Shown here: piece by piece, positions 50,241 to 56,254 of the stretch
How positions within the stretch are numbered: position 1 is the first letter of the stretch
Layout of the letters: each line of letters opens with the position of its first letter
Assembly (NCBI GenBank): GCA_945865605.1
Contig: CAMBEL010000005.1
Coordinates: 1-64,000 of the forward strand
Length of the DNA: 64,000 nucleotides
Direction of reading: 5' to 3'
Origin: Bifidobacterium breve
GTDB lineage: Bacteria; Actinomycetota; Acidimicrobiia; IMCC26256; JAENVU01
The notes under the pieces: generated by a model
What the model was told of the DNA's origin: nothing
The model's input: only the letters and a program-made list of their open reading frames with translations
The model's database searches: none
Made by a program: the position numbers and the translations under genes

Positions 50241-50714
50241 ATGGACCAAACCCATCTGTCTCAGGCTGCGCATGACCGACTCCAAGAAGAGCTCGCGATG
50301 CGTTCAGGCCCCAACCGTCGCGACCTCGCCGACACGATTGAACGCGCACGCGAGTTAGGCGACCTCAAAGAGAATGCCGACTACCACGCGGCTAAAAATG
50401 AACAGGGGTTCAATGAAGCGCGTATACGCCAAATAGACGCGATGCTCAAAGATGTCGTAATCGTCGATACGACAGCTGCAGATGTCGTGGCACCTGGAAC
50501 GATCGTAGGAATCCTCATCGAAGGCGAAGCCGAGGCGACCGAGTATCTCATCGGATCAATAGAGGAACGGCCAGGCGACCGAGACGTTCTTTCTACGTCT
50601 TCTCCCCTAGGCAGAGTGCTTATGGGGAAGGCCGTCGGAGACCGAGCGAGCTACGAGACCCCGAGAAAAACAACGCTCAACGTTGAAGTCGTTACGATCC
50701 GTTCCGCGGAATAA
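50241..50714 (+). CDS. greA: Transcription elongation factor GreA
   Basis: DTIERARELGDLKENADYHAAKNEQGFNEARIRQIDAML; SPLGRVLMGKAVGD. Confidence 0.92.
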   Translation: MDQTHLSQAAHDRLQEELAMRSGPNRRDLADTIERARELGDLKENADYHAAKNEQGFNEARIRQIDAMLKDVVIVDTTAADVVAPGTIVGILIEGEAEATEYLIGSIEERPGDRDVLSTSSPLGRVLMGKAVGDRASYETPRKTTLNVEVVTIRSAE

Positions 50715-52239
50715 TTGCCCCCCAGGCACCACCACCTGGCGTTAGAACGCGGAGCACATCGCCGGCATCCAATTGAATGGTCACTTTGTCTGGCAATCGT
50801 TCAGCGCGCGTTTCATCGCCCCCGCGCAATAACCAGTTCTCTCCGATGGCGCCAGCACCGCCTCCAGTCAGACCCCACGGTTGAGTCACACGTCGTTCAC
50901 TAATGATTGACACTGTCACCGCCTCCAACATCTCTAGTTCCCTGACAATGCCATCACCTCCCGCGAACTCACCGGCACCACCACTGTCTCTACGTAACCC
51001 GTAACGCACGACTCTCATCGGTAGCAAGCGCTCTAGCGCCTCGACCGGCGTATCACGGGTGTTTGTCATGTTGGTATGAACGCCGCTCATTCCCGCGCGT
51101 CCAGGACGGCCACCTTGCCCACCACCGACCGTCTCGTAATACACCCATCCTTCGCCACCGACTAGGAGGTTGTTCATCGTCCCCTGGCTAGCAGCGCCCA
51201 CTTTTTCCGGTGCGACTGCTGCAAGTGCACGCAGGCAGACATCCGCGATGCGTTGGCTTACTTCTACGTTGCCGCCGCCGACGGCCGCGGGGAAAGCGGC
51301 TGCAACAATCGACCCTGCCGGAGCTTCCACGCGTACCGCGCGCAGCGCTCCTCCGTTGGCGGGAATCGTAGGGTCGGTCACGGCACGCAATGCAAACCCA
51401 ACCGCGCTCACCGTCACCGCGTGCACGGCATTGACGTTGCCCGGACGCTGCATGTCTGTTCCGGTGAAATCGAACGTCGCAGTGTCGCCGTCGATGACAA
51501 GAGTCAGTGCTATTCGCGCTGGCGATTGTTGATGCGGGAGTGATCCCGTCGAATCCATAACGTCTTCCGCTGTCCAGACTCCATCGGGGAGCGAAGCGAT
51601 CGCGGCCCGCATGCGCCGTTCTCCGTAATCCACAACCGCTGCAAATGGCGAGCCAGCGAATGTTGCAAGCCGTGCAACCCCCAAGCGGTTTGCGCCAATC
51701 TGTGCATCGAGATCGGCGCGGCGCTCGTCTGGAGTCCTTGACGACGCGACAAATATCTCGACGATGCCATCGTCAAGCACAACGGGAGGGAGACGCAATC
51801 CTTCCTGCGCAATGTGCGTCGCCTCCGGCGGCATTGACCCCGGAGTCATACCGCCTAGATCTGCGTGGTGCGCCCTGTTAGCCGCCCACCCAACCAGCAC
51901 TCCATCAACAACACAGGGGGCAACCAACGTGACGTCATTCAAGTGGGTCCCGCCAGCGAACGGATCATTGACGATGATCTGGCCGCCTGATCCAACTGCG
52001 TATCCACATGCATCAATTGCGGCTTGAACGGCAGCTGGCATTGAGCCGAGGTGAACGGGAATGTGTTCCGCTTGGCCAAGCAACTCACCCTCGGGGGTAA
52101 ACACAGCAGCAGAACAGTCTTGGCGTTCCTTGATATTTGGACTACTTGCGCCGCGCTGCAACACAACGCCCATCTCGTATGCGATGCCAGAGAGCCTCGA
52201 AGTCAAGATCTCGAGATCGGCTGGATCGAGTTCGGTCAT
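50692..52239 (-). CDS. hyuB: Hydantoinase B/oxoprolinase family protein
   Basis: LSGIAYEMGVVLQRGASSPNIKERQDCSAAVFTPEGELLGQAEHIPVHLGSM, GGTHLNDVTLVAP. Confidence 0.9.
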   Translation of the reverse strand: MTELDPADLEILTSRLSGIAYEMGVVLQRGASSPNIKERQDCSAAVFTPEGELLGQAEHIPVHLGSMPAAVQAAIDACGYAVGSGGQIIVNDPFAGGTHLNDVTLVAPCVVDGVLVGWAANRAHHADLGGMTPGSMPPEATHIAQEGLRLPPVVLDDGIVEIFVASSRTPDERRADLDAQIGANRLGVARLATFAGSPFAAVVDYGERRMRAAIASLPDGVWTAEDVMDSTGSLPHQQSPARIALTLVIDGDTATFDFTGTDMQRPGNVNAVHAVTVSAVGFALRAVTDPTIPANGGALRAVRVEAPAGSIVAAAFPAAVGGGNVEVSQRIADVCLRALAAVAPEKVGAASQGTMNNLLVGGEGWVYYETVGGGQGGRPGRAGMSGVHTNMTNTRDTPVEALERLLPMRVVRYGLRRDSGGAGEFAGGDGIVRELEMLEAVTVSIISERRVTQPWGLTGGGAGAIGENWLLRGGDETRAERLPDKVTIQLDAGDVLRVLTPGGGAWGAIIPRNGS

Positions 52240-54017
52240 TGTTCAGACCTTTCAAGCAACAACGCTCCAAGAGGACCGGGCTCGGCGCGCCAACCATTCG
52301 GTATCCAGATGGTGCAGTCTGGCTCACTAATAACTTCCGGCCCGCGCGCGCTTTGCCGAACGAGTGCGGGTAACGCTGAAGGATCGACCTGTGCGGCAAC
52401 CTGCGCTCGCGCTCTCAACGCGATTACTTCGACCTGAACACCGGGTCGCATGTATCCGTTGCGTCGCTCATGTTCGATCGCGAACTCTTCGATTGAACTG
52501 ACTGTGATTTCGTGGCTCTGGCCTTCGTAACGACAATCAACAAAACTCTCGACCATCGGGGAACCCTCGAGCAATCCGGAAACGTCGTTTTCCAACTTCC
52601 GTAGTGCATCGGCGAGCCCGCCTGTACTTCCAGGCGTCGGCCATGACCGAACGAGATCGCGCTGCATTGGGGAGGTCAACAGACCGACAGCCGAAAACAC
52701 GCCAGCTCTCGACGGAATAATCACAGCCCGCATCTCAAGGGCTTCTGCGATCGCGCACCCATGAAGCGGTCCCGCTCCACCGAATGCGACCAACACAAGT
52801 TCACGCGGATCTACGCCCTGAGACACGGTTACGAGTCGGACGGCGCGCTCAATGGAAGCGTCGACGACGCGCACTACGCCCTCTGCCGATACCCCAGCGT
52901 TTTCGAGCGCCGCGCGCGCCAGGTCGATCCGCAATGGTCCAATGCCAGGGAACGATGTCCCCTCCGGAATTCTCCCTAAAACTAGGTCGGCGTCAGTCAC
53001 GGTCGGTTCGGTTCCTGAGCCATAACACGCAGGTCCCGGTACCGCTCCCGCGCTGTTCGGTCCAACAACGAGAGCACCGCCAGCATCAATTCGTGCGATG
53101 GAACCGCCTCCGGCTCCGATCGTGTGGATCGACAACGAAGGAAGTCGAATCGGGAACCCACCGACCGTGTGGCTAGACGTCGGTTCAGGAACTCCGCCTC
53201 GGATCAAACAGACATCGGTGCTCGTACCACCCATGTCGAATGCAACCGCATCGCCGAATCCGCAAGCAGTAACCAAAGCCGATGCAGCGCGCACGCCGCC
53301 CGCTGGACCCGACAGCAATAGTGCGGCAGGTGTTGCTGCCGCTTCGCGAGCAGGTACCAGGCCCCCGGCCGAAGTCATAACGAGCACCGTCTCGCCGAGA
53401 TCATCGATCGCCTCGAGATACCTCCTGCAGATCGGCCGCAGATACGCATTGGCAACCGTCGTCACTGTGCGTTCGTATTCACGGAACTCAGGTGAGACCT
53501 CGTGCGAACAAATGACATCCATGCCGCGGTTCCGCAACTCTTGAGCCACCGCGATCTCGTCGGTCGCGTCGAGGTCGGCATGCAGGAGGCACACAGCTAC
53601 CGCGTCCACATCAGTCGGTATCGCGTCAAGATCCGTGAGGTCGAGTTCATTGACCCTGTGGCCGCTGGCATCGATTCGTCCCGTCACCTCAAATCGCAGT
53701 TCGCGCGACACCAACGGAATCGGCCGATCAACGAATGTGTCATACAAAGACGGTCGCGATTGGCGCGCGATCTCGATGACGTCGGCGAAACCTTTCGTAG
53801 AAACAAGCGCCACCCGCGCCCCTTGGCGCTGCAACAATGCATTGATTGGCACTGTCGTCCCATGAGCGAGAACACCAGGACGACCAAGGCCTAGCGCTTC
53901 GATACCAGCACCAACCGCAGACGCGGGATCTCGCGGTGTAGAAGCAATCTTGACCACACTGCCATCGTCGCCAACAACATCCGTGAACGTCCCGCCCGTA
54001 TCAACGCCAACCCGCAT
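52236..54017 (-). CDS. hyuA: Hydantoinase A/oxoprolinase family protein
   Basis: MRVGVDTGGTFTDVV, LAHGTTVPINALLQRQGARVALVSTKGFADVIEI; 4-nt overlap with hyuB. Confidence 0.93.
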   Translation of the reverse strand: MRVGVDTGGTFTDVVGDDGSVVKIASTPRDPASAVGAGIEALGLGRPGVLAHGTTVPINALLQRQGARVALVSTKGFADVIEIARQSRPSLYDTFVDRPIPLVSRELRFEVTGRIDASGHRVNELDLTDLDAIPTDVDAVAVCLLHADLDATDEIAVAQELRNRGMDVICSHEVSPEFREYERTVTTVANAYLRPICRRYLEAIDDLGETVLVMTSAGGLVPAREAAATPAALLLSGPAGGVRAASALVTACGFGDAVAFDMGGTSTDVCLIRGGVPEPTSSHTVGGFPIRLPSLSIHTIGAGGGSIARIDAGGALVVGPNSAGAVPGPACYGSGTEPTVTDADLVLGRIPEGTSFPGIGPLRIDLARAALENAGVSAEGVVRVVDASIERAVRLVTVSQGVDPRELVLVAFGGAGPLHGCAIAEALEMRAVIIPSRAGVFSAVGLLTSPMQRDLVRSWPTPGSTGGLADALRKLENDVSGLLEGSPMVESFVDCRYEGQSHEITVSSIEEFAIEHERRNGYMRPGVQVEVIALRARAQVAAQVDPSALPALVRQSARGPEVISEPDCTIWIPNGWRAEPGPLGALLLERSEQ

Positions 54018-54057
54018 TAGATCAGCGTGTCACAACGCGAAGAGACGAATGAACCGA

Positions 54058-56001
54058 TCATTCAACCGTTGCAACGACAAGCGAGGTGAGTTCTTCCAAC
54101 CGGTTGCGCTGTGTCGGGTCTAGATCTCCTAATGCGAGACCGAGTAGGTAGAGAGACCAAACGGTCTCAGCTCGTTTGGTATGCGCAGCGAGTTGAAGAA
54201 CAGACTCTTCGGTTAACCCGTCAAGTCGCCCAGCCGCAGCGCGAAGGAGCGCAGCATCTACCACCAATCTCGCCACCGTATCTTCGGCTTCGTGCCCCAA
54301 GCCAAGACGACCCACGAGACTTCGAGCGACGGGTTCCGCGGAGTTATCTTCGCCCGCGGCCTCCAACACGAGCGCCGATAACAACACGAGTTCTGGATGC
54401 GCCAGGTGTTCGTGTGCGGCGAGCGCGAACGGATCCGCCTTTATCTGTCTGCCAACTCGGTCTACGAGTTCAAACCTCAAGACATGGCTTGGTTCAATGA
54501 TGAATGGGTCGGCTCGTCTCCGGGCAACGGCGTTCGCTAGTTCGGGTAACGACCGCGCGAGTACACCGGTTGTCTCCAAGAATCGCCACGTCCGTTCATT
54601 GCCATGCGCGAGCAGGTCGAATAACCGCGCGGCGGCCGCAGGAGTCCAGGCGGTATCGCTCGAGCTAGGCCGACCTAGGCGATCGAGCAGCTTGGTTCCG
54701 GGGCGCGCTCCACCCGTGACAGCACCAGCGGCTTCGAGAGCGATCGTGAGCAACTCGCTTTCCGGAGGTTGAGCAGCTAGATCAACGATTCCATCATCAA
54801 CCCGCAGCCACCCGAGGTCCGGCATCGAGTCGGGCGTTATCTGGGCAGTTTCATCCCATACCTTTTCGAGACGCCGTCGCAACAAAGGCGGAGCCATAAG
54901 GGTCGTAATAAGAACCACGAGTAGGAGAGCCGCGTAAAGCGGACCATCGAGGATCCCGCGCTGGAGACCGATCGTCGCAAAGATCAGTCCAACTTCGCCT
55001 CGGGGAAGCATCCCTAGCCCAATAACCCACCGGTCACCCGGCGCCCCTACCGCGCCCCAGGCTGAGACCAACTTGCCAATCACCCCGACAACAAGCAGGG
55101 CCGTGGCGATTGCCAACACTTGACCATCGAAGAACGAACCGATATCTATTGAGATACCGATCCCAAGGAAGAACACTGGGATAAAGAGATACCCAACCGG
55201 CGCCAGCTCCCGCTCTATGCGCTCCTTTTGATCACTGCGTGACAGCGCAAGTCCAGCCACAAATGCGCCCACGACTGGAGCGAGGCGCGCAAAGCTCGCG
55301 ATTTGGGCGAACGCGAGCGTGAAGGCGAGAGCGATCGCAACCAATGTGCCGGCTGACCGCGCGTATTTCTGTACAAACCGAAAAAATGGTGGACCAAGAC
55401 GCCCACCGATCACGACAGTAACGATGAGAAATCCTGCTGCGACGCCGACGATCCCTGCGACGGCGAGCATCGAGACACTGCCATCGGCGACGATGCGCAC
55501 AACCACCGTCAGAATCACGAGACCGAGCACATCATCGACGACTGCAGCACCGAGCACAGTTCTTGCCTCGATCGATGAGAGCGCGCGCAAATCGCTAAAC
55601 ACGCGCGCCGTAAGGCCAACACTTGTGGCCGCAAGGGCTGCACCTAAGAACAGCGATACGTTCGCCACTTCACCGAAGGCCATGCCGACGGCGAAGCCAC
55701 CAAGCATCGGGAGCACTACGCCGAGCAGCCCGACGCCTATCGACGCTCGCCCCACCGCGGCGAGCCCCTTTACATCCATCTCGAGCCCAACCTGCAACAA
55801 CAAGAGGATCACGCCTAGTTCGCCAAGAACCAGCAGCACTTCGCTCGGACCGACCAAAGCGAGTACCGATGGACCAACAATGACGCCAGCAACGATCTCG
55901 CCAACGACGGTCGGAATCCGAATTCGTTCTGCGACCTCAGCCGCAATCTTCGCGGCAACAAGAACTACGAGAATGTCTAATAGGACTTCGCCAACGTTCA
56001 T
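54058..56001 (-). CDS. CPA2-type cation:proton antiporter with C-terminal GlnD-HD-like extension
   Basis: TM core (VAAKIAAEVAERIRIPTVVGEIVAGVIVGPSVLALV, LGAAVVDDVLGLVIL, MLPRGEVGLIFATIGLQRG); C-terminal 210 aa soluble. Confidence 0.9.
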   Translation of the reverse strand: MNVGEVLLDILVVLVAAKIAAEVAERIRIPTVVGEIVAGVIVGPSVLALVGPSEVLLVLGELGVILLLLQVGLEMDVKGLAAVGRASIGVGLLGVVLPMLGGFAVGMAFGEVANVSLFLGAALAATSVGLTARVFSDLRALSSIEARTVLGAAVVDDVLGLVILTVVVRIVADGSVSMLAVAGIVGVAAGFLIVTVVIGGRLGPPFFRFVQKYARSAGTLVAIALAFTLAFAQIASFARLAPVVGAFVAGLALSRSDQKERIERELAPVGYLFIPVFFLGIGISIDIGSFFDGQVLAIATALLVVGVIGKLVSAWGAVGAPGDRWVIGLGMLPRGEVGLIFATIGLQRGILDGPLYAALLLVVLITTLMAPPLLRRRLEKVWDETAQITPDSMPDLGWLRVDDGIVDLAAQPPESELLTIALEAAGAVTGGARPGTKLLDRLGRPSSSDTAWTPAAAARLFDLLAHGNERTWRFLETTGVLARSLPELANAVARRRADPFIIEPSHVLRFELVDRVGRQIKADPFALAAHEHLAHPELVLLSALVLEAAGEDNSAEPVARSLVGRLGLGHEAEDTVARLVVDAALLRAAAGRLDGLTEESVLQLAAHTKRAETVWSLYLLGLALGDLDPTQRNRLEELTSLVVATVE

Positions 56002-56254
56002 TTCAGGTTCCGTTGACTATCTGCAGAGTAGGCATCTCGGGTGCTCAAGGCGCCACCTGCATCAATGACTGAGGGCATGCTAGGAAAATAGCAAACAAGA
56101 TTTCGGGATTGTGGCGTTGATTTGAAAGATCCTCAAAGGCCGTGGTCGGTGGGTCGCATTTATCCAATCGACCATTCGATCGCTGCTCCCCTATCCTGAG
56201 AGGCCCGAAACCGCAACGTCCCTCGGACGCATCACCGACCCGGAGCAATCAAGA

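Follow-up and report, generated by a model that had tools for sequence, protein, structure and literature searches.

The window analysed here is a 64,000-nucleotide stretch (positions 1 to 64,000 of contig CAMBEL010000005.1) from a fragmented draft genome that is 86% complete in 115 contigs. Its minus strand carries a gene in which a cation/proton antiporter is joined to a tail that resembles part of GlnD, the PII uridylyltransferase/uridylyl-removing enzyme, and the protein is 86% identical to its ortholog at locus L002 in another genome (Table 1). A Pfam search places the Na_H_Exchanger domain (PF00999) at residues 17-374, covering profile columns 7-369 of 375; matches to MotA and TolQ in the transmembrane region (E = 8 and 1.6) are noise. 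Among solved antiporter structures NapA, the CPA2 Na+/H+ antiporter of Thermus thermophilus, is by far the nearest (E = 1.4e-61, against 2.2e-23 for KefC), and it is also the top fold match in a structure search with a full-length relative, the L002 protein matching it at 37-38% identity over ~385 columns. The aspartate pair, the lysine and the unwound-helix motif are common to NapA and the fusion antiporter, whereas the solved NapA chains consist of the transporter core alone (385-394 aa) and have no GlnD-like tail. Masrati et al. reported that aspartates at positions 6 and 7 of the CPA2 motif together with a lysine at position 8 mark electrogenic CPA2 members (PMC6181914); in the fusion family these residues are D156, D157 and K310, all invariant. 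The window gene product is a NapA-type CPA2 antiporter, with electrogenic cation/proton exchange predicted from its sequence. The glutathione-gated K+/H+ exchanger KefC is another CPA2 antiporter whose transport is controlled by a regulatory domain at its C-terminus (PMC11150392), but KefC is K+-selective and has a QD motif and an RCK (Rossmann) tail, whereas the fusion has DD and a GlnD-derived tail. RCK/TrkA and USP had been named as unrelated folds in which the tail might instead be placed; Pfam finds no RCK, TrkA_N or USP domain in the window protein, and its motif is DD and not QD.

Table 1. Features of the antiporter-pseudoGlnD fusion locus in the window
Feature	Position	Strand	Basis
Truncated antiporter-pseudoGlnD fusion gene, 647 aa	54058..56001	-	ORF from ATG; L002 614-3316 (900 aa) orthologous
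CPA2 antiporter core, NapA-type, PF00999	54880..55956	-	E = 3.4e-64; NapA 1.4e-61 versus KefC 2.2e-23
DD ion-binding motif D156-D157 (DDVLGL)	55519..55536	-	Invariant in alignment A1; aligns with NapA DD
Transmembrane lysine K310 (GKLVSA), counterpart of NapA K305	55060..55077	-	Invariant in alignment A1; NapA alignment
Unwound-helix region ATSVGLTARV, NapA-like	55600..55629	-	Nearly the same as NapA ATSVGITARV
GlnD-derived linker (GWLRVDDG...), between the UR_UTase and HD regions of GlnD	54658..54813	-	hhalign from GlnD column 336
Pseudo-HD domain (GlnD UR region, metal ligands lost)	54136..54657	-	TIGR01693; ligand columns; AlphaFold pLDDT 89 for a relative's tail
VLEAAGED, remnant of LLHDIGKG	54346..54369	-	Alignment; ligand columns
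VVDAALLR, remnant of the H-LL helix of the HD site	54241..54264	-	Alignment; ligand columns
Deletion junction, ~735 bp of relative (both ACTs) missing; 3' end of old gene persists downstream of new stop	54021..54063	-	DNA alignment to L002
Shrunken upstream gap, Trans_reg_C winged-helix gene of relatives missing	56002..56254	-	DNA alignment; PF00486 in L002 and L004

The tail, from about residue 397 to residue 647, corresponds to the segment of GlnD that lies past the UTase domain. The NCBIfam GlnD model TIGR01693 matches residues 449-621 (E = 1.7e-7 with the full protein as query, 2.5e-8 with only the tail), and NF003467 matches the tail alone with E = 0.0019. A search of the whole genome with TIGR01693 returns nucleotides 54136-54657 (E = 5.3e-8) and a true GlnD on contig C21, where it adjoins the genome's amtB and a PII gene. 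Because the model matches the tail and an ordinary GlnD lies on another contig, the similarity is real and the fusion is distinct from the genome's own GlnD. Profile-profile alignment of the fusion family with five canonical GlnDs (hhalign; probability 100%, E = 2.7e-55, 474 colinear columns) spans GlnD from column 336 almost to its C-terminus, with linker, HD domain and two ACT domains in the same order. Since the alignment begins at column 336, the fusion boundary falls directly after the UTase-associated domain of GlnD. The original prediction of an antiporter fused to a GlnD-like tail is thus borne out by both the family model and the profile alignment, although the GlnD-like region, which had been placed at 54058-54690, starts further upstream, at about residue 397 (nucleotide 54813). 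The expected likeness to GlnD HD profiles holds for TIGR01693 and fails for Pfam, in which the tail of the window protein matches no domain at all, including HD and PF08335. The nucleotidyltransferase and PF08335 domains of GlnD are missing, by Pfam search, from the window protein and its relatives, whose N-terminal half is antiporter, whereas the true GlnD at L024 matches PF08335. The silence of the Pfam HD model could be taken to mean that the resemblance is a chance similarity of helical segments, but TIGR01693 matches 11 of 11 members of the first family alignment, at best with 1.4e-38, and a run of 474 colinear columns makes such a coincidence so improbable that we discard it.

The metal-binding site of the HD domain, which in GlnD is the uridylyl-removing domain of an enzyme regulated by glutamine (PMC4285133), is no longer present in the fusions. 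Both replacements that had been read from the window are there, with VLEAAGED in place of LLHDIGKG at residues 545-552 and, for HHLL to AALL, VVDAALL at residues 580-586. The loss is general: alignment columns show that the ligand set is gone in all 29 fusion tails and intact in 8 of 8 canonical GlnDs. The DRH histidine and the second-helix histidine are replaced in 29/29 tails, and the histidine of the HD pair and the aspartate of ADA/ADS in 28/29; unlike these, the aspartate of the HD pair is often still D. Uridylyl-transfer and uridylyl-removing activity of the fusion on PII is accordingly predicted to be absent. Compared between the window copy and the relative closest to it, the pseudo-HD domain shows dN of 0.107 and dS of 0.657, and the antiporter 0.061 and 0.514. 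Given this signature of purifying selection, the pseudo-HD domain is a pseudo-enzyme that has been maintained, as opposed to debris.

Three relatives of the fusion were found in the genomes of named species, two of them Acidimicrobiia. Searches at the level of order, class and phylum, which answer the original call for further antiporters with such a tail, yielded ~30 fusions, most of ~860-930 aa, that come from numerous families of the class and, outside it, from a single family of the phylum (f70). The complete design, of ~900 aa, consists of the antiporter, the GlnD-like linker and dead HD domain, and two ACT domains, which PF01842 matches in the relatives with E-values down to 4.6e-16. The ACT domains are conserved in most members, and a D and a G in the loop of the second are almost invariant. 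Proteins with PF08335, that is GlnD or GlnE, occur in 28 of 32 fusion genomes, in most with a GlnD-sized frame; judged from these frames, a separate GlnD is retained in most fusion genomes. AlphaFold models the tail of one relative with confidence (mean pLDDT 89, pTM 0.83), a pair of beta-alpha-beta ACT units coming after a helical body. Docking of the tail on the antiporter is not predicted, since pTM for the whole protein is low (0.52). A sequence search of the PDB found no GlnD structure, and Foldseek with the tail gave just two sorts of match, ACT proteins and "tRNA processing enzyme" chains of nucleotidyltransferase type (3wfp and its relatives; E ~2e-4, overlapping in part), a result that backs the modelled ACT domains and helical body and cannot alone name GlnD. 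Tandem ACT domains of GlnD type that have parted from GlnD catalysis are also found in the plant ACR proteins ACR11 and ACR12 (PMC3173338), which, unlike the fusion, have neither an antiporter nor an HD module.

The window protein lacks both ACT domains, as indicated by Pfam and by DNA alignment to L002. Past the gap of ~735 bp the window sequence picks up again within the final codons of the old gene and continues into hyuA, and the new stop codon is a TGA at the junction itself. A second change lies upstream, where the gene for an OmpR-type DNA-binding protein (Trans_reg_C) that directly precedes the fusion in L002 (179-592) and L004 (4428-4988) is deleted from the window. It is conceivable that the organism has a full-length gene and that the loss of the ACT domains is a metagenome assembly error, as the genome is an incomplete draft in many contigs. 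We think this quite unlikely, because both flanks are continuous across one clean junction, a search of the assembly finds no ACT fragments other than GlnD's own, and ACT-less relatives occur in other genomes (G191, G274, G280 and G043). The two separate losses and the ACT-less relatives argue for a derived, truncated family member that has undergone a real loss of regulation. Without the tandem ACT domains the window copy probably no longer responds to glutamine through them, and, given that the adjacent regulator gene is also lost, the antiporter is probably either constitutively active or regulated through the pseudo-HD domain alone.

In a tree with GlnD, the fusion tails group as a single clade (support 0.997). 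In the antiporter tree, in which some nodes are weak, tail-less members (G173, G200 and G002) and short-tailed members (G274, G280, G191 and G043) are nested within fused groups, so that repeated loss of the tail, or of its ACT part, is probable. The G191 protein stops after the pseudo-HD domain, and in G274 and G280 the sole remnant of the tail is a strongly altered pseudo-HD domain (E = 8e-6 in G280). Since several relatives without ACT domains, or without any tail, retain the antiporter, control by the tail is dispensable. The G280 and G274 proteins (loci L113 and L114) are 593-aa antiporters in which this pseudo-HD domain is also shortened; both adjoin amtB.

Examination of the surroundings of the fusions reveals a recurrent association with nitrogen genes. 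An amtB gene, identified by PF00909, adjoins the fusion in 19 of 31 loci (L081-L111), on the same strand in 18, and families f7, f16, f17, f20, f40, f47, f50 and f70 all show this linkage. Fusion genomes have only one to four amtB genes each, and adjacency by chance would be expected at less than 1% per locus, a rough estimate (~2 genes x 10 kb / 3 Mb) for related genomes that are not independent. Five tail-less or short-tailed antiporters near the fusion group (L112-L115 and L128) also adjoin amtB, and none was found beside 13 other tail-less antiporter loci (L116-L127 and L129) within the few kilobases fetched, some of which are cut by contig ends. In eight genomes (G150, G294, G357, G208, G373, G239, G355 and G033) a PII gene lies beside the fusion. 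Tandem amtB pairs with PII genes are seen at the fusion loci of G239 (L085), G357 (L106), G033 (L102) and G355 (L105), the last two genomes also having a GlnD gene nearby. In actinobacteria the operon order is amtB-glnK-glnD (PMC4285133); the fusions too adjoin amtB and often glnK, and in some lineages amtB lies directly upstream of the fusion, as it does of glnD in the operon. They differ in that a full-length glnD lies elsewhere, apart from the fusion, whose GlnD half is joined to an antiporter. By analogy with this operon, the fusion may have originated from a duplicated copy in which an antiporter became joined to the remains of glnD, which is an economical hypothesis.

Because relatives adjoin amtB and PII genes, nitrogen control of ion exchange is suggested, and of the coupling to nitrogen or nucleotide state that had been proposed for the fusion, the nitrogen part fits these neighbours while nucleotide state is unsupported. 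Our favoured reading of the sequences, by a modest balance of probability, is that the C-terminal half of GlnD serves a NapA-type antiporter as a cytoplasmic tail that regulates transport by nitrogen status, the ACT-less window copy being derived. Binding of glutamine by the ACT domains of GlnD has been proposed (PMC3173338; PMC4285133), and KefC transport is gated by its RCK domains (PMC11150392). In the proposed mechanism the ACT pair would bind glutamine when glutamine is high, and the glutamine-bound ACT domains would then shift the pseudo-HD module relative to the transport core, in a manner resembling that of the RCK domains of KefC. The pseudo-HD domain may still bind PII, and the antiporter and the neighbouring AmtB could jointly balance the flux of ammonium, protons and cations.

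PII might have a larger part than this. The dead HD domain could have been kept precisely since it still binds PII (GlnK), which, besides glutamine, would gate the antiporter as it does AmtB. PII is the only known substrate of GlnD (PMC4285133), it is encoded beside the fusion in the eight genomes named above, and the pseudo-HD domain persists where the ACT domains are gone; however, no PII gene was found in the fusion genomes G017, G018, G204, G097 and G088, three of which are 96-98% complete, and we regard PII docking of this kind as rather unlikely. We would assign a similarly low likelihood to a relief valve through which, at high glutamine, NH4+ (or K+) would leave the cell against protons and import by AmtB would be reversed, an idea to which the amtB linkage lends itself, but the DD, K and ATSVG core is that of the Na+-transporting NapA and not of the K+-selective KefC (PMC6181914). 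A third alternative, that the tail is a scaffold for folding, dimerisation or stability and senses no metabolite, would accommodate both the repeated loss of ACT domains or tail and a catalytic site that is dead in every fusion. It seems to us no more probable than the other two, given the conservation of the ACT domains in most members, with the near-invariant residues in the second, and the linkage to nitrogen genes.

Regulatory tails, RCK domains and others, are already known from CPA antiporters. No description of an antiporter with a GlnD tail was found in the non-subscription literature searched; judged by those papers, the GlnD-derived tail is a new variant among antiporters of this kind. 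At slightly under even probability, the fusions represent an undescribed branch of nitrogen signalling, in which the sensing half of GlnD gates an antiporter by glutamine, PII or both and is encoded with AmtB and GlnK, and from which lineages such as that of the window later cut the sensor. If so, ammonium assimilation would be coupled directly to membrane ion exchange. The family would also provide a natural pseudo-enzyme series, in which half of an enzyme is reused as a regulator, the active site is dead throughout and the sensor has been trimmed several times independently.

The window's own family departs from the pattern of nitrogen neighbours, in that its fusion locus has no amtB and is flanked by leuC/leuD and hyuA/hyuB. 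Many amino acids serve as ligands of ACT domains. Considering this together with these neighbours, it is possible that in this family the ACT domains bind a ligand other than glutamine, for example leucine. A tail-less antiporter relative of ~410 aa likewise adjoins leuC at L120 (G061), at L129 (G080) and in other ~1 Mb genomes of family f22. In the window, hyuA and hyuB (hydantoinase/5-oxoprolinase-like; 50692-54017) come after the fusion in the same orientation and may link the locus to oxoproline/glutamate metabolism.
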